Below are positions 17,468 to 53,311 of a stretch of 64,000 nt of DNA, piece after piece. Source of the DNA: Desulfoferula mesophila (GTDB lineage Bacteria > Desulfobacterota > Desulfarculia > Desulfarculales > Desulfarculaceae); assembly GCF_037076455.1 (NCBI RefSeq), contig NZ_AP028679.1, positions 4,231,501-4,295,500 of the forward strand, read 5' to 3'. Under the pieces are notes generated by a model. It made no database searches. It saw only the letters and a program-made list of their open reading frames with translations, and was not told the DNA's origin. Each line of letters starts with the position of its first letter. Within the stretch, counting starts at the first letter, position 1. The translations under genes were made by a program, and so were the position numbers.

Positions 17468-17492
17468 AAGGCGAAAACGGCGGGAGGCAGCT

Positions 17493-18671: not shown

Positions 18672-18700
18672 GAGTGATTTTGGCAACAGAAAGGCGAACC

Positions 18701-19585: not shown

Positions 19586-19655
19586 GTCGTCATTGACGAT
19601 TTCAGCCAGGCGGGCAATTCCGATACTTGGCAAGCGTTCCTAAGGGAGGGAAGCT

Positions 19656-20711: not shown

Positions 20712-20721
20712 ACTGCCCCAG

Positions 20722-20757
20722 CCCGGGGCCGGGAGGCTTCGGCCGACCAGCCCCGGG
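20722..20757 (+). terminator. GC-rich hairpin between dctP and dctQ
   Basis: CCCGGGGC (20722-20729) and GCCCCGGG (20750-20757) form a perfect eight-pair stem 10 bases after the dctP stop. It is not followed by a T-run, so it more likely stabilises the dctP message or attenuates read-through, giving more receptor than permease. Similar hairpins lie at the same place in the other two TRAP operons. Confidence 0.6.
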
Positions 20758-20786
20758 GTTCTTAGCGTCCCAAAGGGAGCGAAAAA

Positions 20787-29231: not shown

Positions 29232-29268
29232 ATGCCCCCGGCCGGGCCCCAAGGGGCCCAACCGGGAG
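29232..29268 (-). terminator. Terminator hairpin downstream of xsc
   Basis: On the minus strand CCCGGTTGGGCCCC-TT-GGGGCCCGGCCGGG forms a 14-pair stem with two G-U pairs, followed within eight bases by ATCTTTT. It ends the long minus-strand operon that starts upstream of 41456 and separates it from mmsA. Confidence 0.75.
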
Positions 29269-29284
29269 CACTAGACAAGACAAG

Positions 29285-31015
29285 CTAAATATTCAAATGC
29301 TTGTACTTGGGTAGCAGGTTGAAGGCCGGCTTCAAGGCGTCGCGCCGGAAGGGCTCGGCCAGGACCTTCTCGCCGCCCTCCAGGATGGCGTTGATCACCA
29401 CCGGCTTGCCGCAGGAAACGGCTTCCTTGATGGCGTCGCCCACCTGGTCCGGGTGGTCCAGCTTCATGCCCACCGCGCCCATGTCCTCGGCCAGCTGGGC
29501 GTAGTCCGGGTTGGTGGGCAGGTTGGCGCCCACGAAGCGGTTGTTGTAGTAGTCGATCTGGTTCTTCTTCTCCGCGCCCCACTCGAAGTTGTTGGCCACG
29601 ATGGCGATCACCGGGATGTTCTCGCGCACCGCGGTCATCACTTCGGCGATACCGCTGATGCCGTAGGCGCCGTCACCTTGGAAGGCCACCACCGGCGCCT
29701 CGGGGTTGGCCATCTTGGCCCCCATGGCCGCGCCGTAGGCAAAGCCGCAGTTGCCCCAGCTCAGGGCGCTGATGTGCTGGCGCACGCCATTGAACTTCAG
29801 GTAGCCGTTGATGATCGAGGAGTTGTTGCCGATGTCCGTGGCCACGATGGCGTTCTTGGGCAGCGCCTTGGTCCACTCGGCGTGGAAGCGCCGCGGATGC
29901 ATGGGCGCCGACTGGCTGGAAGAGCTCCACTCGCCCAGCTCCTGGTCCCATACCGCCTTTTCCTGGGCCACGTCGTCGATGCGCGCCTGGTTGCGGCCCA
30001 GGTCCGGGGAAAGCTCCTTGACCCGGCCCAGCAGCAGGCCGGTGAACTCCTTGACGTCGCCGCAGGAGTACACGTCGGCCTTTTTGGCCACCCCCAGCAC
30101 CGCCACGTTGGTGTCGCACTGGATCAGCTTGGCGTTCTCGGGCCAGTAGGTGATGTCGTACTGGGGCAAGGTGCCGAATGGTCCCAAGCGGGTGCCCAGG
30201 GCGATCACCAGGTCGGCCTTGGCCAGGGTGCGCATGGCCGCCTTGGAGCCGCAGTAGCCGATGGGCCCGCAGGCCAGCTCATGATCCGCCGGGAAGGTGT
30301 CGTTGTGCAGGTAGCTGTTGACCACCGGCGCGCTGAGATACTCGGCCAGGGCGGTCACCTCGGCCAGGGCGTCGCTCTGGCTCACCCCGCCGCCCGAGAC
30401 GATGACCGGGTACTTGGCCTGCAGGGCCAGCTTGGCCGCCTCCTCCAGGTCTTCCATGGAGCCGGCGCCGCGCCTGATCAGCGGAGTGCGGTAGATCTCG
30501 TCGTTCACCTCGCCGTAGAAGTAGTCGCGGGGGATGTTGAGGTGGCTGGGGCCGTTGAAATTCTTAGCCATGTAAAAGGCCCGGCGGCCCAGCTCGGCCA
30601 TGCGCTCGGCCCGGTTCACCCGCACCTGGTACACCGTCTGGGCCTGGAACATGGGCATCTGGTCCAGTTCCTGGAAGCCGCCGGTGCCGATGCCCATGCT
30701 GCCCGTCTCCGGGGCGATGGCCACCACCGGGCTGTGGGCCCAGTAGGCCGCGGTGATCGCCGAGACGAAGTTGGCCGCGCCGGGGCCGTTCTGGGCGATG
30801 CAGGCCTGGGGCATACCGGTGACCCGGGCCAGGCCGTCGGCCGCGTGGGCCGCGGCCTGCTCGTGGGCCACGGGTATGAAACGGATGCCCGCGTCCGGGA
30901 AAAGGTCCAGGGCGTCCATGAACGCGCTGCCCACAATGCCGAATACGTACTTCACGCCCTCCGCGGCCATGGTTTCAACCAGCGCCTCGCTGGGGGTCAT
31001 CTTTTGTTTGCTCAT
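29285..31015 (-). CDS. xsc: Sulfoacetaldehyde acetyltransferase
   Basis: ThDP enzyme that cleaves the C-S bond of sulfoacetaldehyde using phosphate, giving acetyl phosphate and sulfite. 576 aa from ATG 31015 (AAGGAG eight bases upstream); the ATG at 31024 is too close to that site. Cofactor-activating Glu is E52 in PVAHEQAAAHAADG; Mg/ThDP motif GDG at 447-449 with NN at 475-476. Features I associate with Xsc rather than acetolactate synthase are NIPRDYFYGEV (161-170), VVNSYLHNDTFPADH (231-245), GTRLGPFGTLPQ (274-285) and WGAEKKNQIDYYNNRFVG (479-496). Acetate kinase is encoded directly upstream in the operon, fitting ATP formation from acetyl phosphate. This anchors the operon as organosulfonate catabolism. 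Confidence 0.92.
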   Translation of the reverse strand: MSKQKMTPSEALVETMAAEGVKYVFGIVGSAFMDALDLFPDAGIRFIPVAHEQAAAHAADGLARVTGMPQACIAQNGPGAANFVSAITAAYWAHSPVVAIAPETGSMGIGTGGFQELDQMPMFQAQTVYQVRVNRAERMAELGRRAFYMAKNFNGPSHLNIPRDYFYGEVNDEIYRTPLIRRGAGSMEDLEEAAKLALQAKYPVIVSGGGVSQSDALAEVTALAEYLSAPVVNSYLHNDTFPADHELACGPIGYCGSKAAMRTLAKADLVIALGTRLGPFGTLPQYDITYWPENAKLIQCDTNVAVLGVAKKADVYSCGDVKEFTGLLLGRVKELSPDLGRNQARIDDVAQEKAVWDQELGEWSSSSQSAPMHPRRFHAEWTKALPKNAIVATDIGNNSSIINGYLKFNGVRQHISALSWGNCGFAYGAAMGAKMANPEAPVVAFQGDGAYGISGIAEVMTAVRENIPVIAIVANNFEWGAEKKNQIDYYNNRFVGANLPTNPDYAQLAEDMGAVGMKLDHPDQVGDAIKEAVSCGKPVVINAILEGGEKVLAEPFRRDALKPAFNLLPKYKHLNI

Positions 31016-31051
31016 CTCATCCACTCCTTGGATTGTGCGGTTACAACAAGT

Positions 31052-32296
31052 TTATTGAGCCGTCAGCCAGGCGTACCGGCCGGCCGCATTAAGATTTGGT
31101 TGAATCAAATGCACTGTCTGTTGGGCTATGGCCAATTCCTCGTCGGTGGGAATCACCAAAAGTTTCACCGCCGCCCCGGGAGCCTGAATCTCACGCAGGC
31201 CTTTCCCCGGGGCGTCGTTAAGGGAGTCGTCCAGATCGATGCCCAAGAATTCCAGCCCCTGACAAGCCAGGCGCCGGATCAGGGGCGAGTTTTCGCCTAT
31301 GCCCGCGGTGAACACCACGGCATCCAGCCCGCCCAGGACGGCGGCATAGCTGCCAAGGTACTTCTTGATGCGGTAGGCAAAAATCTGGAGGGCTTGCAGG
31401 GCATGGTGATCGCCTTGGTCCATGGCCTCCACGATGTCGCGCAGATCGCCGGAGGCCACCCCGGACAGGGCCGCCAGACCGGACTGCTTGTTCAGCAAGT
31501 CGTTGACTTGCGCGGGGGTGATACCGTGGCGCTCCTGCAGGTACACGATGATGGCCGGGTCCAGATCGCCGCAGCGGGTGCCCATCATCAGGCCCTCCAG
31601 GGGGGTGAAGCCCATGCTGGTGTCCAAGCTGCGGCCGCCGGTTATCGCCGCCATGCTGCAGCCGTTGCCCAAGTGGCAGGTGACTACCCGCCGGGACTCC
31701 GGTGGGCCTGGCAGGTGTTCGAGGGCCTGCAGGTAAACGTATTGGTGGCTGGTGCCGTGGAAGCCGTAGCGGCGGATCTTGTCCCTTTCATATAGCTCCC
31801 TGGGCAGGGGGTAGAGATAGGCCACCGGCGGCATCTTGGCGTGAAAGGCGGTGTCGAACACCACCACGTGAACCGCATGGGGCAGCGAAAGCTCGGCCGC
31901 TTCGATGCCGGCCAAGCCATGCGGGTTGTGCAAGGGGGCCAGAGCGGACCAGCGGCGAATGATGTTCGTGGTGTTCTCGTTGAGCAGCACCGGCTGGGTG
32001 ACGGAATCGCCGCCATGCACCACCCGATGACCCACCGCGCCGATCTGGGCTAGGGAGGATAGTACCCCCTCCTCGGGGTCCACCAGGCGGGCGAGGAGCA
32101 GTTCCACCGCCCGCCTGATGTCCGTCACTTGAATCGGGCGGCAAAGCGTAGCCTGGCCGGAGGCCCACAAGTGCAAGGTGGTGCCGTCTTGCCCCACCCG
32201 CTCCACCAGGCCCTTGGCCAGAACCCGGAAGCCTTCGGAGTCAAAACAGGTCAGTTTCACCGAGGAACTGCCCGCGTTGATCACCAGAACAATCAT
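31052..32296 (-). CDS. ackA: Acetate kinase
   Basis: 414-aa ASKHA kinase converting acetyl phosphate and ADP to acetate and ATP. The start at 32296 gives MIVLVINAGSSSVKLTCF with the essential Asn7; the frame upstream of it has no family similarity. Other active-site motifs are AVGHRVVHGGD (substrate Arg), VVFDTAFHAKMP (Asp), YGFHGTSHQYV (His), MGFTPLEGLMMGTRCGDLDP (Arg) and TAGIGENSPLIRR (Glu). It lies 36 bases upstream of xsc on the same strand. No phosphate acetyltransferase is nearby, so acetyl phosphate is probably used for energy rather than for acetyl-CoA. Confidence 0.96.
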   Translation of the reverse strand: MIVLVINAGSSSVKLTCFDSEGFRVLAKGLVERVGQDGTTLHLWASGQATLCRPIQVTDIRRAVELLLARLVDPEEGVLSSLAQIGAVGHRVVHGGDSVTQPVLLNENTTNIIRRWSALAPLHNPHGLAGIEAAELSLPHAVHVVVFDTAFHAKMPPVAYLYPLPRELYERDKIRRYGFHGTSHQYVYLQALEHLPGPPESRRVVTCHLGNGCSMAAITGGRSLDTSMGFTPLEGLMMGTRCGDLDPAIIVYLQERHGITPAQVNDLLNKQSGLAALSGVASGDLRDIVEAMDQGDHHALQALQIFAYRIKKYLGSYAAVLGGLDAVVFTAGIGENSPLIRRLACQGLEFLGIDLDDSLNDAPGKGLREIQAPGAAVKLLVIPTDEELAIAQQTVHLIQPNLNAAGRYAWLTAQ

Positions 32297-32327
32297 CCGA
32301 CCGAATCTCCCACCTCGCGTGTCACCC

Positions 32328-34046
32328 CTAGAGAGCCACGGTGTCCGAGGCGGGCACGTAGCTGGCCGCCGGGTCGACCTTGGCCTCAACCACCACCGGG
32401 CCGTCCTGCTTGTGGGCCTCGCGCAGGGCGTCCTCCAGGCCGGAGAAGCTGTCCACCCGCATGCCCACGGCGCCCAGGCCCTCGGCGGTCTTGGCGAAGT
32501 TCACCTCGGCGAAGTCCACTCCTATCTTCTTGTCCCCCATGTTGTCGCGCACCATGCCCAGCCCGCAGTTGTTGGAGACCACGAACACAACCGGCACGTT
32601 GTGTTGGACGCAGGAGGCCACTACGTCGATGGTCATCAGGAAGCCACCATCGCCGGCCAGGCAGGTGACCCTCTTCTCGGGCAGGGCCAGCTTGGCCGCC
32701 GCCGCCGCGGGACCGCCCCAACCCATGCCGCCCACGCCGCCGGGCACCAGGATGTGGTTGGGGTGGCGGATGCGCAGGCTGTTGGTGTTCCAGATGCGGT
32801 TGCTGCCGGCGTCCAGGCTGACCACGTCGTCGGGACCCAGGAATTTCTGCACCGCAGCCACCACGTCGGTGTGGTGCAAGGTTCCCGGCGCGGAAGGCAG
32901 ACGGGGCGGATCGTTATAACCGGTATCCTCGCGCAGCTTATCGATGACCGCCTGACGCTTCGGCTTTTTGTCGGCGGGCAGGTTTTGCGCTTGCAGGTAG
33001 GCCACCACGTCGCGCACATCGCCCTGGATGGCCAGATCGACGGGGTAGACCCACCCCGCGTTGCGGGGATCGATATCCACCTGCACGATCTTCTGGTCGC
33101 CCGGACGGATCATCTTTGGATCGCGGAAGCGGGTGTAGTCCGGGCCCATGCTGGCGCCCAGGATGAGCACCAAGTCGGCCTTGGCCAGCATGCGGTTGGC
33201 GGTGGGGTTGCCCCAGGTGCCCAACATGCCGCAGGCCACCGGAGACAGCTCGTCCACCGTGCCTTTGCCGTTGTAGCTGGTCACCACCGCGCATCCCAGC
33301 TTTTCGGCCAACTCTTGCAGATCGGCGCCAATGCGGGCGTCGTACACCCCCTGGCCCGAAACGATGACCGGCTGCTCGGCCTCGATCAGCATCTGGGCCA
33401 GCTTGGCCAGGGACTCGGGGTCCGGCTTGGCGGGGCTGTAGGCCCAATAACCGTCCGGCGGGTAGAGCCGGGCCCGAGGCTCGGCGGGCATTTCCTCTTT
33501 GATGATGGTCGATTTCATGATTACCGCCGCCGGGCCCATGCGGGGAGTGGAGGCGTGCTTGTAGGCCATTTGGAAGCCGTACACCGCCGCCTCGGGCTCG
33601 GTGGCGTAGGTGCAATACTTGGTGATGGCCTTGAGGCTCTGCTGGATGTCGGCTCCGCCGTAATCGCCGGTCATGGTCTGGTACACGCCGTACTGGCCAA
33701 AGCCATCGTAGTCCGAGGTCTCGGTGAGCAACACCATGGGGGAGCCGGAGAAAAGGGCCTCCAGCACACCGAAGGAACCCGTGGTGGAGACCCAGGGGCC
33801 CTGCCCCATGAACACGCCGGGCTTGCCGGTGAGCCGGCCGGTAACCTGGGCCATCACCGAGGCCACCTGCTCGCTGCGGGTGAGGAAGACGTCTATTTCC
33901 TTGCGGCGCTCATAGAAGGCCGGCAAGGTCCAGGTCACTCCCAGCCCTGGGAGGGTGAAAACCCTTTTGACCCCCGCCTTGATAACATTGTCGACCACAA
34001 AATCGCGCGTCATTTGAGGCGCCGCCTTAAGCGGTGAAGTTGCCAT
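32328..34046 (-). CDS. Acetolactate synthase-like ThDP enzyme of an unusual subgroup (copy 2)
   Basis: 572-aa ThDP enzyme with the three-domain layout PYR, central and PP. Cofactor Glu is E59 in LTRSEQVASVMAQ; ThDP/Mg motif is GDGGFLM (465-471) with NN at 492-493. Between them it departs from known acetolactate synthases: GVFMGQGPWVSTTGSFG, LEALFSGSPMVLL, TSDYDGFGQYGVYQTMTGDY, then GASMGPDYTRFRDPKMIRPG and VDIDPRNAGWV. These are shared with the enzyme at 41754-43457 but not with Xsc or the enzyme at 39759. It lies immediately upstream of ackA-xsc and downstream of a GntR regulator. Single-chain sulfopyruvate decarboxylase-like activity, supplying sulfoacetaldehyde to Xsc, would fit the context, but a different 2-oxoacid or diketone cleavage is equally possible. 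Confidence 0.8.
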   Translation of the reverse strand: MATSPLKAAPQMTRDFVVDNVIKAGVKRVFTLPGLGVTWTLPAFYERRKEIDVFLTRSEQVASVMAQVTGRLTGKPGVFMGQGPWVSTTGSFGVLEALFSGSPMVLLTETSDYDGFGQYGVYQTMTGDYGGADIQQSLKAITKYCTYATEPEAAVYGFQMAYKHASTPRMGPAAVIMKSTIIKEEMPAEPRARLYPPDGYWAYSPAKPDPESLAKLAQMLIEAEQPVIVSGQGVYDARIGADLQELAEKLGCAVVTSYNGKGTVDELSPVACGMLGTWGNPTANRMLAKADLVLILGASMGPDYTRFRDPKMIRPGDQKIVQVDIDPRNAGWVYPVDLAIQGDVRDVVAYLQAQNLPADKKPKRQAVIDKLREDTGYNDPPRLPSAPGTLHHTDVVAAVQKFLGPDDVVSLDAGSNRIWNTNSLRIRHPNHILVPGGVGGMGWGGPAAAAAKLALPEKRVTCLAGDGGFLMTIDVVASCVQHNVPVVFVVSNNCGLGMVRDNMGDKKIGVDFAEVNFAKTAEGLGAVGMRVDSFSGLEDALREAHKQDGPVVVEAKVDPAASYVPASDTVAL

Positions 34047-34133: not shown

Positions 34134-34808
34134 TTATTTGATGCTGGCCAGGAACCTGTCCCGAGCCTTGTCGATATGATCGATGACAAAGCGTTCCAGC
34201 TTGTCGGGATCGGTTTGCGGGTTGTCGAACATATCCATTATCTTCACATGGTTCGCCAAATGACTGTCAAAGTCATCATCCTGATGGGGGAAAACCATGC
34301 GATGCCTATAACTGTGCAGTCGCAACATGCGCAGCAAGGCCGAGAGCAGCCCCAGCCCGCAGGCATTTATGAATGTGCTGTGGAACTTGTTATGGGACGC
34401 CCAAAAGCCATCGTGATCTTGACTCTCCGTGGCGACGCGCATCTGTTGGAGGGCCTTTCTCAAGGCCACCCTATCTTTCTCGTCCATGTTTAGGAAGGCG
34501 TATTTGGCGGCCAGGCCCTCCAACGGAGCACGCACGATGTGGCTTTCCTCGATGTCCTTTTTGGTGATTACCTTGACCACGGTGCCCTTGCGGGGCACGA
34601 TGTCCACAAGCCCCATCTTCTCCAGGTCTCGGATGGCCTCGCGGATGGGCGAGCGGCTGACCCCGAATTTCTTTTCCAGGTCCCGCTCCACCAACTTCTC
34701 TCCACCGGCCAATTCGCCGTTGACGATCGCCTCCTTGAGGAGACTGGTCAACTGCTGTCCGATGGCCTTAGGCCTAAAGTCCATATCATCTATGAACCGG
34801 GAGGACAT
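34134..34808 (-). CDS. GntR-family regulator, FadR/FCD subfamily
   Basis: 224 aa. The winged helix at residues 15-75 reads LTSLLKEAIVNGELAGGEKL, FGVSRSPIREAIRDLEKMG and VDIVPRKGTVV. The FCD effector domain at 80-220 carries likely metal-binding residues in HNKFHSTFIN and HLANHVKIMD. FCD regulators usually bind a small carboxylate or sulfonate. It sits between the TRAP genes and the ThDP-ackA-xsc genes. Candidate operators are GTATATAC in its own promoter (34842) and TATGGTCGACCATA upstream of the operon (41505). Confidence 0.9.
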   Translation of the reverse strand: MSSRFIDDMDFRPKAIGQQLTSLLKEAIVNGELAGGEKLVERDLEKKFGVSRSPIREAIRDLEKMGLVDIVPRKGTVVKVITKKDIEESHIVRAPLEGLAAKYAFLNMDEKDRVALRKALQQMRVATESQDHDGFWASHNKFHSTFINACGLGLLSALLRMLRLHSYRHRMVFPHQDDDFDSHLANHVKIMDMFDNPQTDPDKLERFVIDHIDKARDRFLASIK

Positions 34809-34878: not shown

Positions 34879-36168
34879 TCAATTCACAAAACCAAAGTAT
34901 TTTGGGAAAAACATCGTTATTTCTGGTACATATGTAACCAGCAACAACACGACTACCTCGGCCAACAGGAAAGGCATTATCCCTATACTAACCTTAGTGA
35001 GAGTTGTCTTGCAGATGCCGCACACCGCAAACAGCACCAAGCCAAAAGGCGGCGTGGCCAGCCCAATGGTGAGATTAACGCACATTATGAGCCCGAAATG
35101 GATGGGGTCCACGCCCATCTTGTAAGCTACCGGCGCCATTAACGGACCCAGCACTATAATGGCGAATCCCATGTCCAAAAACATGCCCACGACCAGTAGG
35201 ATCGCGTTGACAATCAGCAAGAAAATAATCTTGTCGTCCGTGATTGCCAAGAACATCGAGGCCACATGCTCCACTAGATTGTAGTAGGTCACCAACCAAC
35301 TGAAGCTCTTGGCACAAGCCAGCAGGAACATGAGCATGGCCGTGGACCTAACAGTGTGCTTTAGGATGGGAGCCAAATCCTTCAACTTGAGGGTCCGGTA
35401 ATAGATAAAGCCAACGAATAGGCCATAGAGCACGGCGATGGCCGAAGCCTGGGTAGGGCTGAAAAATCCGCCCAGGATGCCACCCATAATGATGACCGGC
35501 ATGAGCAGGGCCGGCACGCCACGGGCCACTGCCAAGAGTAGGTTCGTGACCCCAATGAAGGGGATACGCTCGCCGTAGCCCTTGCGCACCGCCACCAAAT
35601 AGGCGGCGGCCATTAGGGCCAGGCCCACCAGTATGCCCGGCACCATTCCGCCCAAGAACAGACCGGCGATGGACACGTTCATCACCGAGGCGTAGATGAG
35701 CATGGGGATGCTGGGCGGGATGATGGGCCCGATGACCGAACTGGCGGCGGTGACCGCAGCGCTGTAGGTCTCGCCATAGCCCTGCTTATTCATGGCCGGG
35801 ATCATGATGCTGCCGATGGCCACGGTATCCGACACGGCGGAACCTGTGATGCCGGCGAAAAGCATGCTGGCCACGATGTTGGTGTGGGCTAGTCCGCCGC
35901 GCATGAAGCCTACCAGGGCCGAGGCAAGGTTCATGAGCTTGTCGGTAATTTGAGCGCGATTCATCACCTCGCCGGTCATGATGAAGAAGGGAATGGCCAA
36001 CAGCAGCGGATCCTCCATGCTGGCCACCATCTTCTGCGGAATTTGCATGAAAAGTCGAGGATCGCCCATTTGGTAGTAGACAAATATGGTCGTCAACACC
36101 AGGCAGAACGCGACGGGTACCCCGATCAACATCATCGGGAAGAACGTGGAAAATATCAGTGCGACCAT
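34879..36168 (-). CDS. dctM: TRAP transporter large permease, DctM type
   Basis: 429-aa permease with about 12 hydrophobic spans. Motifs are IGVPVAFCLVLTT, LAIPFFIMTGEVMN, GSAVSDTVAIGSIMIPAM, SSVIGPIIPPSIPMLIYA and NLTIGLATPPFGLVLF. It follows the dctQ gene at 31 bases and is followed by the GntR gene. With the adjoining receptor it imports the substrate of the ThDP/xsc operon; TRAP systems TauKLM and HpsKLM are known for taurine and dihydroxypropanesulfonate. Confidence 0.94.
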   Translation of the reverse strand: MVALIFSTFFPMMLIGVPVAFCLVLTTIFVYYQMGDPRLFMQIPQKMVASMEDPLLLAIPFFIMTGEVMNRAQITDKLMNLASALVGFMRGGLAHTNIVASMLFAGITGSAVSDTVAIGSIMIPAMNKQGYGETYSAAVTAASSVIGPIIPPSIPMLIYASVMNVSIAGLFLGGMVPGILVGLALMAAAYLVAVRKGYGERIPFIGVTNLLLAVARGVPALLMPVIIMGGILGGFFSPTQASAIAVLYGLFVGFIYYRTLKLKDLAPILKHTVRSTAMLMFLLACAKSFSWLVTYYNLVEHVASMFLAITDDKIIFLLIVNAILLVVGMFLDMGFAIIVLGPLMAPVAYKMGVDPIHFGLIMCVNLTIGLATPPFGLVLFAVCGICKTTLTKVSIGIMPFLLAEVVVLLLVTYVPEITMFFPKYFGFVN

Positions 36169-36198
36169 GGTTTCACTTCTCCTGCCGTACGGGGAACC

Positions 36199-36708
36199 TT
36201 AATCCGGTTGCGCATTCAATTCTTTTTTTCTGGGGTCGGGCAACACGTAGGCGATACTGAAAATGCCCAGAATCAGCCCCGCCACGGGCACCGCGAAATA
36301 GTACCAAGACATGTTTATGTCCAAATAAAGGGATGATTGGGATTTGCCGACAAACCTGGCGAGTTGCGTACCATATTGCACCATCACCCAAACGACGACC
36401 AAGGCGAGCAGCGCATGGAGCACCTTAAACCCGTATTGGACCGGAGAAGAAAAGCGCTCTGTGATGGTGTCTACACCGATATGCCCACCGTATCGGGCGA
36501 TGACCCCCGCGCCCAGCAGGGCGACCCAAATGAACAGTAGGGTGTTGACCTCTTCGGTCCAGGGGATGGATTCGCCCACAAAGTGATCGAAAAACATGCC
36601 CAAGGTGGTGTTAAACAACAGCAGCCCGGCCAGTAAGATCACTACGGCATAGGTTGCTTTTTCCAGGTAGTCCAACGCCGTATGAAAAGAGGATAAAAAC
36701 TTTTGCAT
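36199..36708 (-). CDS. dctQ: TRAP transporter small permease, DctQ type
   Basis: 169 aa, four spans (about residues 17-37, 48-66, 90-110, 132-155). FFDHFVGESIPWTEEVNTLLFIW (read as FFDHFVGESIPWTEE and VNTLLFIW) and ARYGGHIGVDTITERF fit DctQ. It is separated from dctP by a strong GC-rich hairpin. Confidence 0.9.
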   Translation of the reverse strand: MQKFLSSFHTALDYLEKATYAVVILLAGLLLFNTTLGMFFDHFVGESIPWTEEVNTLLFIWVALLGAGVIARYGGHIGVDTITERFSSPVQYGFKVLHALLALVVVWVMVQYGTQLARFVGKSQSSLYLDINMSWYYFAVPVAGLILGIFSIAYVLPDPRKKELNAQPD

Positions 36709-36741
36709 GGTCAGGCTCCCTGTTATCGAACTAAGTGGTTC

Positions 36742-36774
36742 GGCGGCCGGCCCTGCCCCCGTGGACCGGCCGCC
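36742..36774 (-). terminator. GC-rich hairpin between dctP and dctQ
   Basis: Minus strand GGCGGCCGGTCC and GGGCCGGCCGCC form a 12-pair stem (one G-U) around a nine-base loop, ten bases after the dctP stop. There is no T-run. Position and kind match the hairpins at 20722 and 49928. Confidence 0.6.
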
Positions 36775-36783
36775 GCATAAAGC

Positions 36784-37863
36784 CTACTTAATGTTCAATT
36801 GGGTCTGTATTTCCTGGGCCAGCTCTTCCTCGGCCTTTTTGGAAGCGGCGAAGATCTTGTCTACCCACTTCTGACCGTTCTCGCCGATCTTGCGGACGGT
36901 GAAGTCAATATAGGGCTTCTGGCCCAACTTCTTGAATTCCTCAAGCTGCGCATCAGTGGGATAGTAAAATTTGCATCCCTGTTTCTTGAGTGCCTCCACC
37001 ACAGCGATCTCGGTGGCGTAAGAATAGGAATTCATAACTTCGCGGCAGATGTCGGCGCCGCGCAGAATAATTTTTTGATATTCCGGGGAAAGCGACCGGA
37101 AGAATTTCTCGTTGATCATCAGGGGGTGCAGGTTGTAGCTGTGCCGGGTCATGGTGATGTTCTTGCAAACCTCGTACAGCTTGACCGAGTACATGGAGTA
37201 TAGTTCGGTTTCGCAGGCCTGGGCCATACCGGTCTGCAAGGCGGTGTAGAGTTCCTTCCAGTTCACGGTTACCGTACGGGCCCCATAGGCGCGGAACATG
37301 GCCAGTAAACCGGGGTTTTCGGGCACACGAACCTTCATCCCCTTTAGGTCGGCAACGCTCTTGACCAGCTTATCCTTAGTATAAAGATTTCGATAACCGG
37401 AGCCTTCGGGCCAAATCAGCACCCTGAGCCCAGTGTTCTTGAGAAACAGTTCGGTCAGTTCCTTGCCCACCGGTCCGGCCATGACCTTCCAGGCCACGCG
37501 GTTGTCTTTGAACAAATAGGGAATTTGGGTGACCGCCACTTCCGGCGCAAAGGGAACCATAATCGAGGTGTACGTGCCGACCATTTGGATGACACCGGTT
37601 TGGCACTGCTCGATCATTGCCCTGACGCCGCCCAGAGAGTAGTTGGGATGTATCTCGAAGGTTATGCCTCCGTTGGTAGCGGCTTCCACGTAGTTGGCAA
37701 AGGCCAAAACGCCGGCGGTGCGGCCCGCACCGGGCATGCGCATTTCGCCTTCTGAACCGTGTCCCAGTCTGATGACTATCGGTTTGTCCGCGGCCGCAGC
37801 CGCACCCACTAGGGCAAGCACCAGCAGCCCCGCCAAGAGCAAAGCAACTATTGATCGTTTCAT
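36784..37863 (-). CDS. dctP: TRAP transporter substrate-binding protein, DctP type
   Basis: 359-aa periplasmic receptor with a clear signal peptide (MKRSIVALLLAGLLVLALVG, cleavage near AAAADKP). IRLGHGSEGEMRMPG opens the first domain; LKGMKVRVPENPGLLAMFRA has the conserved substrate Arg; NWKELYTALQTGMAQACETE is the hinge helix. Its ligand is unknown; context suggests a C2-C3 sulfonate or hydroxy acid. It is encoded 46 bases after the hydroxyacyl-CoA dehydrogenase gene. Confidence 0.93.
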   Translation of the reverse strand: MKRSIVALLLAGLLVLALVGAAAAADKPIVIRLGHGSEGEMRMPGAGRTAGVLAFANYVEAATNGGITFEIHPNYSLGGVRAMIEQCQTGVIQMVGTYTSIMVPFAPEVAVTQIPYLFKDNRVAWKVMAGPVGKELTELFLKNTGLRVLIWPEGSGYRNLYTKDKLVKSVADLKGMKVRVPENPGLLAMFRAYGARTVTVNWKELYTALQTGMAQACETELYSMYSVKLYEVCKNITMTRHSYNLHPLMINEKFFRSLSPEYQKIILRGADICREVMNSYSYATEIAVVEALKKQGCKFYYPTDAQLEEFKKLGQKPYIDFTVRKIGENGQKWVDKIFAASKKAEEELAQEIQTQLNIK

Positions 37864-37909: not shown

Positions 37910-38893
37910 CTAAGACTCGTTTTGCGGCCTTTCCGAAAAAAGGATGTCCATGACCACTTTTTTGACCTTGAGCAATTTGAGATCGCGCTCGCGCAGGACC
38001 TCGGTGGTATCGCGCCCGGCGTAATCGAAAAAGCCACGTCCGGTTTTCACCCCGTAGTGACCTTGGGCCACCAGCTCCTGGAGAATGGCCGGGGCCTCTT
38101 GGCGCTCCTCCTCACTCAGAGGCGCTTCTTGGATGCCCGAGAGCACCATGTCCAATCCCGCGTAGTCGTAACGGGCCACCGCTCCCAGCACGGGCAGACG
38201 GATGCCGATGCTGGCCCGCACGGCGCGGTCGATCTCCCGGGGATCGGCCACCTCCTGGCCCAGCAAATGAAAAACCTCGCGCCCCATGGCCCGTTGAAAA
38301 CGATTGACGATAAAACCGGGCACGAACTTTTTGAGCGCCACGCAGACCATGCCCAAGCTTTCGAACAGCGCCTTTACCCGCATTACCTCCGGCTGGGGCG
38401 TGCGCGGAGCACCCACCACCTCCACCAGGGGGATGATGTAGGGAGGCGTGAAGAAATGGGTCATCATGAAACGTTGGTTCAAAGCGGGGGGAATGAGCTC
38501 AAAGGCGTTAAGAAAGGAGGTGTTGCTGCTAACCAAGGTATGCGGCCCCAAATGAGGCGCCAGAGTGGCAAACAACTCCCGCTTTACCTCCCTTTTTTCA
38601 ATAACCGCCTCTACCACCAGGTCCGATCGGCCAACCGCCTCTTGCCAGCTCTCCGAGGTGTCCACCAGGTCCAAAACCTGGGAGGGGGTTCGGCCCGCCG
38701 CATCGGCGAGGCCGAGGTGCTCCAGGTGTGAAGCCATAAGGTCGCGGGCTTTTAGCAGTTGCGCAGCCTGATGATCCGCCAGGCATACCCGGTGACCACC
38801 CAAAGCCAAGAGCATGGCAATGCCGTGGCCCATGGTGCCGGCCCCGATCACGGTGGCCGTGTATTTTACTTGGCTTAGGCTTGCGTCCCGCAT
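37910..38893 (-). CDS. 3-hydroxyacyl-CoA dehydrogenase-family NAD enzyme
   Basis: 327 aa. The Rossmann N-terminus has VIGAGTMGHGIAMLLALGG (GxGxxG) and an Asp-type NAD selector (CLADHQ). The catalytic His is in MMTHFFTPPYIIPLVEVV, preceded by SSNTSFLNAFE. The C-terminal helical domain ends GHYGVKTGRGFFDY. The HFFTPP loop differs from the HFFNP of fatty-acid enzymes. This places it with family members acting on free hydroxy acids or carnitine-like compounds, so oxidation of a small hydroxy acid or hydroxysulfonate is plausible. Confidence 0.88.
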   Translation of the reverse strand: MRDASLSQVKYTATVIGAGTMGHGIAMLLALGGHRVCLADHQAAQLLKARDLMASHLEHLGLADAAGRTPSQVLDLVDTSESWQEAVGRSDLVVEAVIEKREVKRELFATLAPHLGPHTLVSSNTSFLNAFELIPPALNQRFMMTHFFTPPYIIPLVEVVGAPRTPQPEVMRVKALFESLGMVCVALKKFVPGFIVNRFQRAMGREVFHLLGQEVADPREIDRAVRASIGIRLPVLGAVARYDYAGLDMVLSGIQEAPLSEEERQEAPAILQELVAQGHYGVKTGRGFFDYAGRDTTEVLRERDLKLLKVKKVVMDILFSERPQNES

Positions 38894-38915: not shown

Positions 38916-39734
38916 CTAGTACATAACCGCGCCCGCCGAGACGTTGATGTCCTGGCCGGTCACGGCCCGTGCATCGGGAAGGCATAAAAACGCCACCACT
39001 CCGGCCACGTCCTCGGGATCCACCAGTGTCTGCAGCGGCGAGGCGGCGGCCTTTTTTTGGCGCAACTGCTCCACGCTCTCGCCGGTGCGGCGGCTTACGG
39101 CTTGCAGAATTTGGTCTTGGCGAGGGCCGGCCACCGCGCCGGGGCATACCGCATTGACGCGCACTCCCCAGGGCCCGGCCTCGGCGGCCAGGGTCCTGGT
39201 GAGGCCTATAACGGCCATTTTGGAGGCGGCATAGGGGGTACGTTGCACCAAGGGGCGTTTGGCGCTGACTGAGCTGACGTTGACGATGCACCCCCCACGG
39301 TGCACCTTCATGATCGGCATCGCGTGCTTGCAGCAAAGGAAAACGCCCCGCAGGTTCACCGCCATGGTGTCTTCCCACTCCCCCAGGGTTATCTCTTCGA
39401 TCGGAGCGGTGGGACCGGCTATGCCCGAGTTGTTAACCAGGATGTCCAGACGGTCTTGCAGGCCCAGGGCACGGGCCATCAGATTCTTGACCTGCTCCTC
39501 GCTGGAGACGTCGGCGGCGAAGACCTCAGCCGGTGCCCCTCCCTCTTCGGCGATGAATTGGGCGGTTTCGTGGCAGCCGGTTAGGTTCACGTCACCCAAA
39601 ACCAGGTGAGCCCCCTCCGCAGCCAGGCGCAGCGCAATGGCCCGGCCTATACCCTGACCTCCGCCGGTGACCACGGCCACCTGCCCGGACAAGGGGCCCG
39701 TTTGATCGACAAGTGGCGTGGCTGCAGGGCTCAT
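38916..39734 (-). CDS. Short-chain dehydrogenase/reductase
   Basis: 272-aa classical SDR: TGGGQGIGRAIALRLA cofactor loop, VLGDVN selector (Asp, so NAD), NNSGIAGP, catalytic SSVSAKRPLVQRTPYAASK (Ser, Tyr, Lys), and the C-terminal TGQDINVSAGAVMY. Coding regions on both sides are 23-25 bases away, so it belongs to the long minus-strand operon. It is not a close relative of the two SDRs at 43475 and 45313, which lack the second loop glycine. Probably oxidises a secondary alcohol of the imported substrate. Confidence 0.93.
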   Translation of the reverse strand: MSPAATPLVDQTGPLSGQVAVVTGGGQGIGRAIALRLAAEGAHLVLGDVNLTGCHETAQFIAEEGGAPAEVFAADVSSEEQVKNLMARALGLQDRLDILVNNSGIAGPTAPIEEITLGEWEDTMAVNLRGVFLCCKHAMPIMKVHRGGCIVNVSSVSAKRPLVQRTPYAASKMAVIGLTRTLAAEAGPWGVRVNAVCPGAVAGPRQDQILQAVSRRTGESVEQLRQKKAAASPLQTLVDPEDVAGVVAFLCLPDARAVTGQDINVSAGAVMY

Positions 39735-39758: not shown

Positions 39759-41456
39759 CTAGCCGCCGGCCCACTGGGGTTGCCAGGGCACGGGGGAAAG
39801 ACAGTCAATGTCGGTCATCACTTCCACCAGGCTGGGGCGGCCCGAGGCCAGGGCTTCGGTGATGGCCGGACCGATGCGCGCGGGGTCCTCCACCCGTTCA
39901 CCTTCGCAACCCATCTCCCGGGCTACTTGGGCCAAGTTGACCTTGTGGAATAGATACTGGTCTTCCTTTCGGCCCGGATGCTGGCCATAGGCGCCGCGGA
40001 TGCCCCGCAGGCACTGGCCGTAGCCTCCGTTGTTGTTGACCAGCACCACCACCGGGATATTCCAGCGAGCCGCGGTCTCCAACTCGGAGAGGTGGTAATA
40101 GAGGCCGCCGTCGCCGGTGAAGCAAACCACCGGCCGCTCCGGAGCCCCGCACTTGACTCCCAGGGAGGCCGGGAAGGCCCAACCCAGGGAACCGCCCGTG
40201 GCCCGGATATAGCGCTGGCCCGGCTTGGCCAGCTCGATCATGGTCCCGCTCCAAATGGCCGAGTTGCCAGTGCAGGAAACCAGGATGGCGTTTTCGGGCA
40301 GGGCCTTGGTAACCTCGCGGCACAGGCGTTCAGGGCGGATGGGCCGGGCGTCGGAACTCATCAAGAGCTCCACCTCCGCCCGCCAAGCCCGCACCAACTC
40401 CGCCGCGCGGCGGCTCCAATCGGTTTCTCCACGTTGGGGTTTCACCGTCTGGGCCAGCAGGCCCACGGCCACCTTGGCGTCACCGATCAACGAACAGAGA
40501 TTGGGGTAGTTCACCCCCACCTGAGCGGGCTCGATGTTCACCTCGATGACCTGGGTGCCCGACCTGGGGATGCTCCACATGTTGGTCACCTGGTCGCCGG
40601 TGCCCGAGCCCACGAATAGCACCAGGTCTGCCTCGGAGACGCATTGGTTGGCGCACCAGCGGCTGTAGGTGCCCACCGGCCCCAGGCAGAGGGGATGCCC
40701 AGGGGGCACCATCCCGTTGCCGTCCACCGCGTAGGCGATGGGCATGGCCAGCTTCTCGGCCAGGGCCAGTATCTCGGGGCCCGCTTCAGAGATCACCGCC
40801 CCGCTGCCGGCCACAATCACCGGGTGCTCGGCCTTTTCGAGTGCCTCGACCGCCTTTTCCACGTCTGCCGCGGCCGGCGCGGGGCGCTCGGCCGGATAAG
40901 CTGCATAGCGCTCCTCGCAGACCATAGACAACTCGCCGGCTGCGCGCTCCAACTCGTCGCCCAGGATGCCGTACACGTCGATATGGGCCGGGCCGGGGCA
41001 ACCGGTGGTGGCCTCGCGGAAGGCCTGGCGCAGCAGGAGGGGGAGTTGGCTAAGGGTGTTTACCTCCACGTTATATTTGGTCACCGGCTCATAATAGGGG
41101 CGGTGATAGACCTCCTGGTAGGCGTTGCGATAGCGGTGGGACACTTGCTTCTGCCCGGTGATGGCCACCACCGGCGAGTGGGCCAGCCAGGGCTCCTGCA
41201 GGCCGGCGGCCATGTTGCCCGCGCCCACCGACTGGGCCATGCACACCGCCGGCTTGCCGGTGGCCCGGGCCATACCGTCGGCCATGTAGACGGCCGACTT
41301 CTCGGCGTGGGTCACAATTCGCTTGATCCCCAGCTCCTCCAAGCGGATCAGGGTCTGCCGCAGGACGGCTTCCACATAAAAGACATGGGTGATTCCATAG
41401 CCTTTAATGGCCTCAGCCAGGATTTGGGCTCCATTCGCTTGGTTGGAGGACTCCAT
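39759..41456 (-). CDS. Acetolactate synthase-like ThDP enzyme (copy 3)
   Basis: 565 aa from ATG 41456 (GAGAAAG upstream); the frame extends to 41531 without similarity. Cofactor Glu is in IVTHAEKSAVYMADGMARA; ThDP motif GDGGLYYHL with NNN downstream (VLVNNNGGYG). The central domain has VIVAGSGAVISEAG. It is a full-length ThDP lyase/decarboxylase but not in the same subgroup as the enzymes at 32328 and 41754, having the ordinary MAQSVGAGN and AHSPVVAITG segments. First gene of the operon that ends in xsc. Reaction unknown; decarboxylation of a 2-oxoacid is the default reading. Confidence 0.85.
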   Translation of the reverse strand: MESSNQANGAQILAEAIKGYGITHVFYVEAVLRQTLIRLEELGIKRIVTHAEKSAVYMADGMARATGKPAVCMAQSVGAGNMAAGLQEPWLAHSPVVAITGQKQVSHRYRNAYQEVYHRPYYEPVTKYNVEVNTLSQLPLLLRQAFREATTGCPGPAHIDVYGILGDELERAAGELSMVCEERYAAYPAERPAPAAADVEKAVEALEKAEHPVIVAGSGAVISEAGPEILALAEKLAMPIAYAVDGNGMVPPGHPLCLGPVGTYSRWCANQCVSEADLVLFVGSGTGDQVTNMWSIPRSGTQVIEVNIEPAQVGVNYPNLCSLIGDAKVAVGLLAQTVKPQRGETDWSRRAAELVRAWRAEVELLMSSDARPIRPERLCREVTKALPENAILVSCTGNSAIWSGTMIELAKPGQRYIRATGGSLGWAFPASLGVKCGAPERPVVCFTGDGGLYYHLSELETAARWNIPVVVLVNNNGGYGQCLRGIRGAYGQHPGRKEDQYLFHKVNLAQVAREMGCEGERVEDPARIGPAITEALASGRPSLVEVMTDIDCLSPVPWQPQWAGG

Positions 41457-41504
41457 ACTGACTTTCTCGCAAAAATTTTGTTTGATAGTGGTTTTACAGT
41501 GTGC

Positions 41505-41518
41505 TATGGTCGACCATA
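41505..41518. promoter_or_regulatory. Perfect palindrome TATGGTCGACCATA upstream of the long operon
   Basis: The core TGGT-CG-ACCA resembles the TGGTnnnACCA half-site layout of FadR-type GntR regulators, with a spacer one base shorter. It lies 49 bases before the ThDP gene at 41456 and about 235 bases before the divergent ThDP gene at 41754, so one regulator could control both operons. The GntR gene at 34134 is the candidate. The rest of 41519-41753 shows no gene. Confidence 0.5.
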
Positions 41519-41753
41519 ACAGCAATTGCAAACGCGTGTCAAGCCAATTCGGCCGCTGGAGGCAAAAAGGTTAACTAGTGAATATTTGGGGTAAAACCTT
41601 TTGGCGCCAATCATGGAGCCCACTGGCGGCTGCCTTTACCTTTCCCCTTACATGCCCGGCGATGATAGCCGGCGAGCCCTTCCTATCTAAAGGTCTGGCA
41701 TCAGGGCCGGACCGCAACGATTCATAGACGGCCGTAATTCAGGAGGAACTGAA

Positions 41754-43457
41754 GTGTCTGATGTCAAAACTCGCGACAAGATGGTGGATGTGTTCATCCA
41801 AGCTGGAATCAAACAAATCTTTACATTCCCTGGTTTGGGAATCACCTGGCTGGCCCCGGCCTTCTATGAGCGTCGCGATGAAATCCAGGTTATTTTGGGC
41901 CGCAGCGAACAATCGGCTTCCATCATGGCCCAAGCCTACGGCCGAATAAAGGACGCACCCGGCGTGTTTATGGGCCAAGGCCCCTGGGCGGTGACCACCG
42001 GCGCCTTTGGCTGCCTGGAGGCCTTCTTCTCCGGCACCCCCATGATGTTCCTTGCCTGCACCTCCGATTACAACGGCATGGGCGCCTACGGAGTTTATCA
42101 GTCCATGACCGGTGACTACGGCGCAGGCGACGCCAAGGCCTCCATCTCCCATCTTTGCAAGTACTCCAGCTTGGCCACCCGCCCCGACGAGGCTATCTTC
42201 GGCATGCAGATGGCCCTCAAGCATTGCAACACCCCCCGCAAGGGCGTGGGCGCCCTGATCTTCCGAACCGATTTCGTGCGCGAGGACTACCCGGCGGTGC
42301 TCAAGAGCACGGTCTACGACACCACCAACTACCTGCTCTACACCCCGCCCTCCCCCAACCAGGAGGCCATGGACAAGCTGGCCGAGATGATCAACCAGGC
42401 CAAGCGCCCGGTGGTGCTGGCCGGTTTCGGCGCACGCCAGGCCGGGGCGGGCGAGGCCCTGTTCAAGCTGGCCAACGAGGTGGGCCTGGGCGTGGTCACC
42501 AGCACCAACGGCAAGAGCATCATCGATGAGACCTCGGCGGTGTGCGCCGGCACCATGGGCTCCTTCGGCGGCACCAAGGCCTCGCACCGGCTCCTAGCCG
42601 AGTCGGACATGGTGCTCATCCTGGGAGCCAGCCTGGGGGCCGACTACACCCGCTTCCGCGACCCAGGCATGATCCGCCCGGGCAGCCAGAAGTTGGTGCA
42701 GGTGGACATCGACCCGCGCAACGCCTCCTGGGTGGTGCCGGTGGATCTGCCTATTACCGGCGATTGCAAGGACGTGGTGGAGTACCTGCTGGCCAAGAAG
42801 CTGGACAGCTCCAATAAAGAGGCCCGCATGAACTGGATCACCAAGCTCAAGGAGCGCAACAAATACGACGAAGTTCGCACCTTCAACAACGCGCCGGGCA
42901 AGGTGCACTACGCTGACGTATACAACGCCCTGAACCGCTATATGACCGCCGATGACCTGCTGGTGACCGATGCGGGCAACAACAGCATCTGGTGCAAACA
43001 CATCATCCGCTGCCGCTACCCCAACCATTACATCACCCCAGGCGGCACAGGGGCCATGGGCTGGGGCGCGCCGGCTGCAGTGGGCGTGAAGTTCGCCTGC
43101 CCGGACAAGCGGGTGACCATGGTGGCCGGCGACGGCGGCTTCATGATGACCCACGACGCAGTGGCCACCGCGGTGCAGTTCAATCAGCCCATCACCTTCG
43201 TAGTACTCAACAACTCGGGCCTGGGCATGGTGCGCGACAACCAGCTCAACAACATGGTCTACTGCAACTTCGGCTACATCAACTTCTCCGAGATGGCTCG
43301 CGGCATGGGCGCCGAGGCGATGCAGGTTGATTCGAGCGACACCTTCATGGACGCGCTCAAGGCCTCCCACGACAGCAATAAGGTCACGGTAATTGAGGTG
43401 GCTCTGGACCCCGAGGCGCGGCATGGCGACGCCACGGACATGGGCTCCCTTTTCTAA
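41754..43457 (+). CDS. Acetolactate synthase-like ThDP enzyme of an unusual subgroup (copy 1)
   Basis: 567 aa from GTG 41754 with AGGAGG seven bases upstream. Cofactor Glu is E52 in LGRSEQSASIMAQ; ThDP motif GDGGFMM near residue 459 with NNSGLGMVRDN downstream. It shares with the enzyme at 32328 the rare segments GVFMGQGPWAVTTGAFG, TSDYNGMGAYGVYQSMTGDY, GADYTRFRDPGMIRPG, VDIDPRNASWVVPVDLP and PGGTGAMGWGAPAA. It is followed at short intervals by SDR, MDR, SDR, MDR, amidohydrolase and TRAP genes. It may cleave or decarboxylate the ketone made by those dehydrogenases. IolD- or cyclohexanedione hydrolase-like ring opening is an alternative. Confidence 0.8.
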   Translation: MSDVKTRDKMVDVFIQAGIKQIFTFPGLGITWLAPAFYERRDEIQVILGRSEQSASIMAQAYGRIKDAPGVFMGQGPWAVTTGAFGCLEAFFSGTPMMFLACTSDYNGMGAYGVYQSMTGDYGAGDAKASISHLCKYSSLATRPDEAIFGMQMALKHCNTPRKGVGALIFRTDFVREDYPAVLKSTVYDTTNYLLYTPPSPNQEAMDKLAEMINQAKRPVVLAGFGARQAGAGEALFKLANEVGLGVVTSTNGKSIIDETSAVCAGTMGSFGGTKASHRLLAESDMVLILGASLGADYTRFRDPGMIRPGSQKLVQVDIDPRNASWVVPVDLPITGDCKDVVEYLLAKKLDSSNKEARMNWITKLKERNKYDEVRTFNNAPGKVHYADVYNALNRYMTADDLLVTDAGNNSIWCKHIIRCRYPNHYITPGGTGAMGWGAPAAVGVKFACPDKRVTMVAGDGGFMMTHDAVATAVQFNQPITFVVLNNSGLGMVRDNQLNNMVYCNFGYINFSEMARGMGAEAMQVDSSDTFMDALKASHDSNKVTVIEVALDPEARHGDATDMGSLF

Positions 43458-43474: not shown

Positions 43475-44245
43475 ATGAGCAGCGATAGACCGGTAGCCCT
43501 GGTGGCCGGCGGAGCCAACAACATAGGCGCAGCCACTGCACGCCTCATGGCCGAGGACCATTTCGTGGTGGTTGCCGATATGGGAGACCCCACGGCGGTG
43601 GTGCATGAGCTGGGACCGGAGCGGGCGATGGGCCTACGCGGCGACATCAGCAACTATGACGACTGCCGAGCCTGGGTGGACGAGGCCGAAAAGCATGGCC
43701 CCCTCAAAAGCCTAATCAACACCGTGGGCATTAGCTCGCCCGGCGAGTTCGTGGAAAACCTTGACCTGGACGAATGGGACCGGGTGCTCAAGGTGAACCT
43801 GACCGGCAGCTTCTACCTATCGCGAGCGGCTATCCCGGCCCTGAAGCGTTCGGGCTTCTCCGACAAGTCAATCGTGCTCATCTCCTCCCGCTCGGGCAAG
43901 GGCGGCACCGCCAGCCTTGGCTCTACCAAGATGTCCAAGGCCCACTATTGCTGCTCCAAGGCCGGGGTGATCTGCCTGGTCAAGTGCCTGGCCTACGAGC
44001 TGAGCGAAGATCAGATACGGGTAAACAGCGTGGCCCCGGGCCCCATCAAGAGCCTCAATCCCGATGGTCGCCCGGGGGCCACCATCAACCCGGACTTCTG
44101 GGAGAGCATCGCCCAGAGGGTGCCACTCAAGCGCATGGGTGAACCTGAAGACATAGCCAATGCCTGCCGCTTCCTTTGCTCGGACCAGGCCCGCTTCATA
44201 ACCGGGCACACCATGGACGTCAACGGTGGCACCCTTATGGATTGA
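43475..44245 (+). CDS. SDR-family oxidoreductase, first of a duplicated pair
   Basis: 256 aa. The nucleotide loop reads AGGANNIGAATARLM, with Asn where the second Gly of GxxxGxG is usual. VVVADMGD gives an Asp selector for NAD. The NNAG motif is changed to NTVG. Catalytic Ser is in LISSRSGKGG and Tyr/Lys in AHYCCSKAG, after an inserted STKMSK. C-terminal ITGHTMDVNGGTLMD. The same changes and the same last eight residues are found in the SDR at 45313, so they are duplicates. Seventeen bases after the ThDP gene. Confidence 0.92.
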   Translation: MSSDRPVALVAGGANNIGAATARLMAEDHFVVVADMGDPTAVVHELGPERAMGLRGDISNYDDCRAWVDEAEKHGPLKSLINTVGISSPGEFVENLDLDEWDRVLKVNLTGSFYLSRAAIPALKRSGFSDKSIVLISSRSGKGGTASLGSTKMSKAHYCCSKAGVICLVKCLAYELSEDQIRVNSVAPGPIKSLNPDGRPGATINPDFWESIAQRVPLKRMGEPEDIANACRFLCSDQARFITGHTMDVNGGTLMD

Positions 44246-44263: not shown

Positions 44264-45286
44264 ATGAAAGCAGTGATTTGTTCGCGGAAGCAGGGCCTGG
44301 TCTTCACCGAGGTGCCCACACCCCAGGCGGGCCCGGGCGAGGTGGTGGTCCGCGTGGCTGACACCGGAGTCTGCGGCTCTGACATATCGTTCATCAAGAA
44401 GGGCTTTTTTGAAGAAGGCTACATCCTGGGGCACGAGATAAGCGCGGTGGTGCACCAGGTGGGTCAAGGGGTGGAGGGTATAGAGCCCGGCCAGCGGGTG
44501 ATGATGCGGCCCACCTTTTGCGGCCAATGCGCTTTTTGCACCAGCGGCAAGCCCCACTTTTGCTCGGAGTACCGCCGCCTGCTGGGGGTGCGCGACCTGC
44601 CCGGCGGATTCGCGGAGTATGTGCGGGTGTTGCCGGGCATGCTCATCCCCATCCCCGAGGGGGTGGACTCGCGCAACGCGGCCCTGGCCGAGGTCTTCGC
44701 CTCGTCCTATCACGGCCTGAATTGCTCACAAGCCCAGGGCGGCTCGGCCCTGGTCATGGGCGGCGGGCCCATAGGTTTGGCCATGGTGGCCCTGCTCAAG
44801 CTGCACGGATTCGGCCCCATCCTGCTCAGCGAGCCGGTGGCGGCCAAGCGGGAAGTGGGCCTGGCCTTCGGGGCCGACGCGGCGGTGGACCCCTTGCGGG
44901 AAAACCTGGGCTACCACGTCTTCGACCTCACCCAGGATCGTGGATTTGACGCCGTCTTCGAGTGCTCGGGCATCGCAGACAACGTGCCCCTGGCCCTGGA
45001 TTTCATCGCCGTGCAGGGGCGCATCACCGTGGTGAGCGTCATCAGCGACTTCGCCCGCATCCCCATGCGGCGCCTGACCTTCACCGAAGCCAAGCTCACC
45101 GCCTCCATCTCCAACACCCACGAGGAAAACAAGCAAATATTACAGTGGATGGCCCAAGGGCGCCTGGACGGCCGCCCCATGATCAGCGAGATCATCAGCC
45201 TGGAGGAGCTACCTCAGGTTTTTAACGAACGCATCCTGGCCGGCAAGTCGATCAAGACCCTGTTAAAAATCGGGCCCGAATTCTAG
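44264..45286 (+). CDS. Zinc-dependent medium-chain dehydrogenase (MDR), first of a duplicated pair
   Basis: 340 aa. Catalytic Zn ligands: Cys in DTGVCGSDISFIKKG and GHE. The structural Zn loop has CGQCAFCTSGKPHFC. The NAD fold is MGGGPIGLAMVALLKLHG with SEP as selector region. The family includes threonine, sorbitol and butanediol dehydrogenases, enzymes acting on secondary alcohols of polyols. It lies between the two SDR genes at 18-27 bases, so the SDR-MDR pair is co-transcribed. Confidence 0.92.
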   Translation: MKAVICSRKQGLVFTEVPTPQAGPGEVVVRVADTGVCGSDISFIKKGFFEEGYILGHEISAVVHQVGQGVEGIEPGQRVMMRPTFCGQCAFCTSGKPHFCSEYRRLLGVRDLPGGFAEYVRVLPGMLIPIPEGVDSRNAALAEVFASSYHGLNCSQAQGGSALVMGGGPIGLAMVALLKLHGFGPILLSEPVAAKREVGLAFGADAAVDPLRENLGYHVFDLTQDRGFDAVFECSGIADNVPLALDFIAVQGRITVVSVISDFARIPMRRLTFTEAKLTASISNTHEENKQILQWMAQGRLDGRPMISEIISLEELPQVFNERILAGKSIKTLLKIGPEF

Positions 45287-45312
45287 GGTCCGTGAGGAAA
45301 AGAAGACTATCG

Positions 45313-53231: not shown

Positions 53232-53311
53232 CGCGGTCCTCCTCTCTACAGACCGCGATTGTACCTAAATCCTAACTCAAACTCGTGGATCAGGATTCGG
53301 GGGGCAGGTCA

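Follow-up and report, generated by a model that had tools for sequence, protein, structure and literature searches.

Which reactions are carried out by two unusual ThDP enzymes, A and B, is the question raised by a locus of Desulfoferula mesophila that lies in a window of 64,000 nt, the whole stretch of DNA analysed here (contig NZ_AP028679.1, positions 4,231,501 to 4,295,500). A preliminary description of this DNA had singled out A and B as an unusual enzyme subgroup present twice, and the genes bear this out: both ORFs are of full length with zero internal stops, their products are 51% identical across 561 aa, and they are the sole two members of the subgroup in the 4.48 Mb genome, where the next matches reach at most 31%. 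The interval given for A holds a real ORF, but its coding strand is the minus strand, and the plus-strand reading corresponds to another frame. Compared with a congener, dN/dS is 0.17 for A and 0.18 for B, similar to the 0.19 of Xsc, and therefore both genes are maintained under purifying selection.

The three domains of ThDP enzymes (PF02776, PF00205 and PF02775) all score above the Pfam cut-off in A and B. The cofactor motifs, already described as intact, are so in both proteins, with the catalytic Glu59 and a GDGG...NN motif with a spacing of about 26 residues. Four long segments that had been reported as shared (GVFMGQGPW..TTG.FG, TSDY.G.G.YGVYQ.MTGDY, DYTRFRDP.MIRPG and VDIDPRNA.WV) were likewise found in A and B, and their exact forms occur in none of 21 other ThDP sequences of the C-type, PRK06112, AHAS, GCL, POX, OXC, Xsc, AlsS and BbmA kinds. 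A comparison of 51 sequences separates marks of different range: YTRFRD is present in 9/9 sequences of the A/B clade and in 0/42 others, including 0/21 of a wider clade around it, and QG.[WFY] and the DxDxRNxxW region are common to all 21 of these wider-clade members and are thus wider-clade marks. The substrate-pocket loop is altered as had been noticed, with QGPW standing where relatives have GPG (QGxW/F/Y being one hallmark of the wider clade). In addition, across the whole wider clade the loop before the active-site Gln is 8 residues longer, a feature missed before, and a 3-residue insertion is located near residue 310. In AHAS, the Arg of the FDDR motif is the acceptor-binding residue; the residue aligned with it here is Asp303. 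An AF2 model reached a pLDDT of 78, but loops 113-131 and 301-307, the very ones specific to the clade, are of low confidence, and therefore no claim about the pocket is drawn from it.

The two genes head for opposite directions in divergent operons (Table 1), as had been proposed. The minus-strand operon runs from 41531 to 29285 in the order C-SDR1-3HCDH-DctP-DctQ-DctM-GntR-A-AckA-Xsc with gaps of at most 87 bp and starts with the gene of a third ThDP enzyme, C, at a distance of 222 bp from B. The plus-strand operon has the order B-SDR2-ZnADH1-SDR3-ZnADH2. Counting Xsc along with A, B and C, the locus has four ThDP enzymes, and the main functional clue, which the preliminary description did not use, is that A shares an operon with Xsc.

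Table 1. Features of the A operon (minus strand) and the B operon (plus strand), positions in the window
Feature	Position	Strand	Remarks
Terminator-like hairpin	29232..29271	minus	strong, with 18-pair stem; directly after the Xsc stop codon
Xsc, sulfoacetaldehyde acetyltransferase	29285..31024	minus	TIGR03457 734 bits (cut-off 676); last gene of A operon; conserved beside A in relatives
AckA, acetate kinase family	31052..32308	minus	TIGR00016 461 bits (cut-off 293); 19 bp downstream of A
ThDP enzyme A	32328..34046	minus	572 aa; member of uncharacterised clade; Glu59 and GDGG..NN intact
GntR/FCD regulator	34134..34808	minus	within A operon; 43% homologue adjoins Xsc in HyVt-363
TRAP transporter DctM-DctQ-DctP	34879..37863	minus	
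3-Hydroxyacyl-CoA-dehydrogenase-type NAD oxidoreductase (3HCDH-type)	37910..38893	minus	
SDR1 oxidoreductase	38916..39734	minus	PF13561
ThDP enzyme C	39759..41531	minus	third ThDP enzyme, unassigned; first gene of A operon; clade with HyVt-363 and Achromobacter copies
ThDP enzyme B	41754..43457	plus	567 aa; 51% identical to A; heads divergent operon
SDR2 oxidoreductase	43475..44245	plus	PF13561
Zn-dependent alcohol dehydrogenase 1 (ZnADH1)	44264..45286	plus	PF08240/PF00107
SDR3 oxidoreductase	45292..46056	plus	homologues in HyVt-363 (65%) and D. cuneatus (60%), each immediately downstream of the A-type gene
Zn-dependent alcohol dehydrogenase 2 (ZnADH2)	46088..47140	plus	

Relatives of C occur in HyVt-363 (58%) and on Achromobacter plasmids (45%), where they adjoin SMP-30, SDR and tripartite-transporter genes. 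Between congeners, AckA shows 58-60% identity with a dN/dS of 0.47, versus 82-89% identity for A, B, C and Xsc, and judging from these values the AckA-family kinase looks replaced or respecialised.

In a maximum-likelihood tree, the A/B clade (9 sequences) is nested in a wider unnamed clade of 30 sequences, each with support of 100/100, and AHAS, GCL, POX, OXC, Xsc, AlsS and PRK06112 all fall outside the latter. The phylogeny, which the preliminary description had named as a possible refutation, thus leaves its claim of a separate subgroup standing with respect to these families; for IolD, of which the tree contains no sequence (none was found among 148 Desulfobacterota searched), the separation is by profile score only. 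A is 62-67% identical to its counterparts in HyVt-363 and D. cuneatus, where they are single-copy, as against 51% to B, so the split between A and B is old and a local tandem duplication is ruled out as their origin. The suggestion that two paralogues in one locus imply two related substrates or enantiomers is unsupported in that form and stays a guess.

Members of the A/B clade are rare. Two of its peptide patterns, run against the genomes of 84,980 species, matched three members, and neither the 297 Desulfovibrionales nor the 291 Desulfobacterales searched yielded any beyond the one already known in each; Martelella pMM593 and the congeners bring the clade to nine. The Desulfarculaceae MAG contig JAIPEN010000004.1 encodes an enzyme 89% identical to A. 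Sequences of the wider clade (35-39%) are found on haloarchaeal plasmids, on roseobacter plasmids and in about 3% of the sampled Desulfobacterota. The clade members found all lack both a solved structure and an assigned function, and a literature search of partial coverage yielded no paper on the A/B clade and nothing relevant on D. cuneatus sulfonates, Desulfarculaceae Xsc or BbmA/CsmA.

By curated profile score, A and B belong to none of AHAS, Xsc, GCL and IolD, by tree not to Oxc, and not to ComDE. With AHAS/acetolactate synthase (TIGR00118, AlsS) they have in common the three-domain fold, the catalytic Glu and GDG..NN, and here the closest known structures are found, at an identity of 27% or less; A and B differ from them in the replaced FDDR Arg, in QGPW for GPG and in the longer pocket loop, and reach 260 and 248 bits, respectively (cut-off 538 bits). 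Xsc is of the same ThDP superfamily as A and shares its operon, but forms a separate clade with different loops, and A obtains 182 bits with the Xsc profile TIGR03457 (cut-off 676 bits). For ComE (TIGR03846, cut-off 221.5) the scores are 27 bits for A and 43 bits for B. With glyoxylate carboligase B scores 191 bits (cut-off 791 bits), and the Val-for-Glu trait of that enzyme is absent, Glu being present in both A and B. IolD and cyclohexane-1,2-dione hydrolase (CDH) are ThDP enzymes cleaving C-C bonds of cyclic diketones; B scores 177 bits with the IolD profile (TIGR04377, cut-off 715 bits), and CDH gives 231 bits to the clade profile versus 369 for the best PDB match. The latter is BbmA, a ThDP-dependent HKA synthase (PDB 8x3x, 188 bits to A), which lies outside the clade in the tree and is a biosynthetic natural-product enzyme.

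The linkage between A and Xsc extends beyond this genome. Five Desulfobacterota genomes, from three lineages, carry the A-type gene, and each of them has a true Xsc at a distance of about 10 kb or less from it. Both genes share one operon in three congeneric genomes, and two congeners retain the order A-AckA-Xsc. In D. cuneatus, Xsc is on the strand of the A-type gene, 6.6 kb downstream of it, and it lies at 10.3 kb in HyVt-363, where AckA follows and a GntR gene related to that of the window adjoins; both distances represent linkage, not adjacency. By contrast with these 5/5 genomes, Xsc scores above its cut-off in 29 of the 390 sampled Desulfobacterota (7%), and in none of the congeners without A/B (G002, G004 and G005). 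For a genome of 4.5 Mb, we estimate the probability that Xsc falls by chance inside a distance of about 11 kb at roughly 0.5% per lineage, and its recurrence in three independent lineages therefore argues for a functional link. Among the genomes of the wider clade, Xsc occurs in 3 of the 12 examined, never on the contig of the ThDP gene, and the plasmid of the Martelella relative (56%) was searched and has no Xsc. ComE (TIGR03846) exceeds the cut-off in only one of the five A-bearing genomes, HyVt-363 (G418), and in none of the other four (G000, G001, G006 and G419). The D. cuneatus contig with the A-type gene also carries SuyA (61%) and SuyB (73%) in a separate gene group. In this group (L091, 9173-12460, minus strand), a gene for a LarAH5-type malate racemase, which may be a sulfolactate racemase, comes after the SuyA-SuyB homologues.

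From the linkage of A-type genes to Xsc, the mostly missing ComE and the presence of SuyAB in D. cuneatus, we infer A as the supplier of sulfoacetaldehyde. Our tentative answer, to which we give a little less than an even chance, is that A, as a ThDP enzyme with three domains from a clade so far undescribed, makes sulfoacetaldehyde for Xsc in the anaerobic breakdown of a C3-type organosulfonate. Its reaction would most likely be that of a single-chain, non-ComDE sulfopyruvate decarboxylase, which is the simplest chemistry considered. The sulfonate, such as sulfolactate or 2,3-dihydroxypropanesulfonate (DHPS), would be taken up by the TRAP transporter, and the SDR, Zn-ADH or 3HCDH-type dehydrogenases would oxidise it to a 2-oxo compound, for which sulfopyruvate is the most likely candidate. 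With ThDP as its cofactor, A would then decarboxylate this compound to sulfoacetaldehyde, from which Xsc, with phosphate, would form acetyl phosphate and sulfite; AckA would yield acetate and ATP, and the sulfite would enter respiration. B, a diverged paralogue, may act on a related substrate supplied by the pair of SDRs and the pair of Zn-ADHs in its own operon.

The conversion of sulfolactate to sulfopyruvate, by ComDE to sulfoacetaldehyde and by Xsc to acetyl phosphate is an established route (PMC11382572), and a survey of HpsN clusters reported the HpsN-ComDE-Xsc route only from Alphaproteobacteria (PMC11382572). A and ComDE would have the proposed reaction and the place just before Xsc in common, but ComDE consists of two short subunits and A of one chain with a central domain; that A works like ComDE is a claim separate from membership in that family. 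Compared with the DHPS and sulfolactate pathways (HpsNOP, SlcC/ComC, SuyAB, ComDE-Xsc), the locus is alike in Xsc and in the SDR and Zn-ADH families, and SuyAB is present on the D. cuneatus contig; it differs in that the window has no match to HpsN, no recognisable SlcC/ComC and ComE scores below the cut-off. With no more than 25-30% identity to HpsO/HpsP, its SDRs and Zn-ADHs are ruled out as orthologues of these enzymes.

Neighbours in the wider clade, among them genes resembling those of a 2-hydroxyacid racemase and a galactarate dehydratase and the order aminotransferase-ThDP-ALDH, would be in keeping with a 2-oxoacid decarboxylase, and Asp303 in place of the AHAS acceptor Arg likewise counts in favour of the role proposed for A. 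Against the role proposed for A stand the HyVt-363 genome, which carries both A and ComE, and the Martelella plasmid without Xsc. Furthermore, sulfopyruvate decarboxylation alone gives no account of the six dehydrogenases and of the ThDP enzymes B and C. The main rival to a decarboxylase is a retro-acyloin lyase: from a vicinal-diol sulfonate, or else from a longer sulfo-polyol, the SDR and Zn-ADH dehydrogenases would produce an alpha-hydroxyketone or a diketone, and ThDP-dependent C-C cleavage would release sulfoacetaldehyde (A) or a related aldehyde or acid (B). Such a reaction is suggested by SDR3, the constant partner of the clade in HyVt-363, D. cuneatus and the B operon, together with the many dehydrogenases. 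The missing AHAS acceptor Arg points in the same direction, as do the two SDRs and two Zn-ADHs of the B operon, which are of the same families as the DHPS 2-dehydrogenases HpsO/HpsP (PF13561; PF00107-PF08240) (PMC11382572). We nevertheless consider it rather improbable, as no sulfonate-cleaving ThDP lyase with this type of reaction is characterised among the close relatives and the known C-C-cleaving relatives IolD and CDH are far below the cut-off or distant.

Xsc and AckA might also form an independent module, for example for taurine, within a shared operon, with A, B and C acting on non-sulfonated hydroxyacids or polyols. Wider-clade members without linked Xsc, which lie beside lactonases, epimerase-type dehydrogenases and hydroxyacid genes, are consistent with this, and so are a class-III aminotransferase and an ALDH just past the Xsc terminator; these two are not kept beside Xsc in the congener G001, and the Xsc linkage in three lineages and the lack of Xsc in congeners without A/B make such a module unlikely, though it deserves to be taken seriously. 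That A and B are acetolactate synthase-like carboligases in a misleading context is highly improbable. AHAS/ALS and BbmA are indeed the top profile and structure matches, but the scores are about half the curated cut-offs or less, the clade is separate, the AHAS acceptor Arg is missing, and another ThDP protein of the genome (own_L005), which groups with E. coli IlvB in the tree, looks like its normal AHAS.

Organosulfonates such as sulfolactate, DHPS and sulfoquinovose products are major pools of sulfur and carbon. If A makes sulfoacetaldehyde, bacteria of the sulfate-reducing type would possess a ThDP-Xsc route of their own, with sulfite freed for respiration, which escapes annotation based on ComDE. 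The clade, which ranges from haloarchaea and roseobacters to Desulfobacterota, would then gain a first testable function. It is conceivable, if somewhat doubtful, that A and B found a new ThDP family which cleaves sulfonated hydroxy-keto skeletons (or decarboxylates sulfopyruvate free of ComDE) with different substrates for each, in an anaerobic sulfonate-respiration pathway of Desulfobacterota encoded by operons with the four ThDP enzymes named above.

The plasmid loci of the wider clade show recurrent gene orders. On haloarchaeal plasmids (L023 11688-14743, L034 7679-11173, L025 9661-13143), an EthD-family protein, the wider-clade ThDP enzyme and an NAD-epimerase-type oxidoreductase are repeated as a conserved cassette beside an IclR regulator. 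Roseobacter plasmids (L024 9403-14683, L032 11358-16649) again carry a divergent pair of two ThDP enzymes, a PRK06112-type gene being divergent from GntR, the wider-clade ThDP gene and an SMP-30 lactonase, plus a Zn-ADH and an SDR. The "acetolactate synthase" of these plasmids is ruled out as an orthologue of C, since it is of the PRK06112 type and nearest to own_L007 in the tree. In the D. mesophila genome, a PRK06112-type ThDP enzyme (L082 10894-12930, at about 0.94 Mb) is encoded near genes with counterparts at two wider-clade loci, L077 (63-70% identity) and L080 (53%).

Elsewhere in the window, an enoyl-CoA hydratase, a CaiB-type CoA transferase and a CitE/RipC-like lyase are followed by a TRAP transporter (16595-22639, plus strand), a cluster which resembles itaconate/citramalyl-CoA-type degradation by its gene content. 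Tripartite tricarboxylate transporter genes adjoin a molybdenum hydroxylase (MoCoBD and FAD subunits) and flavin reductases at 472-8734 on the minus strand. At 52108-58583, IS3/IS481 and IS21 transposases flank a SNF2/DrmD-like helicase of 462 aa, which is probably a fragment, DrmD having about 1000 aa.
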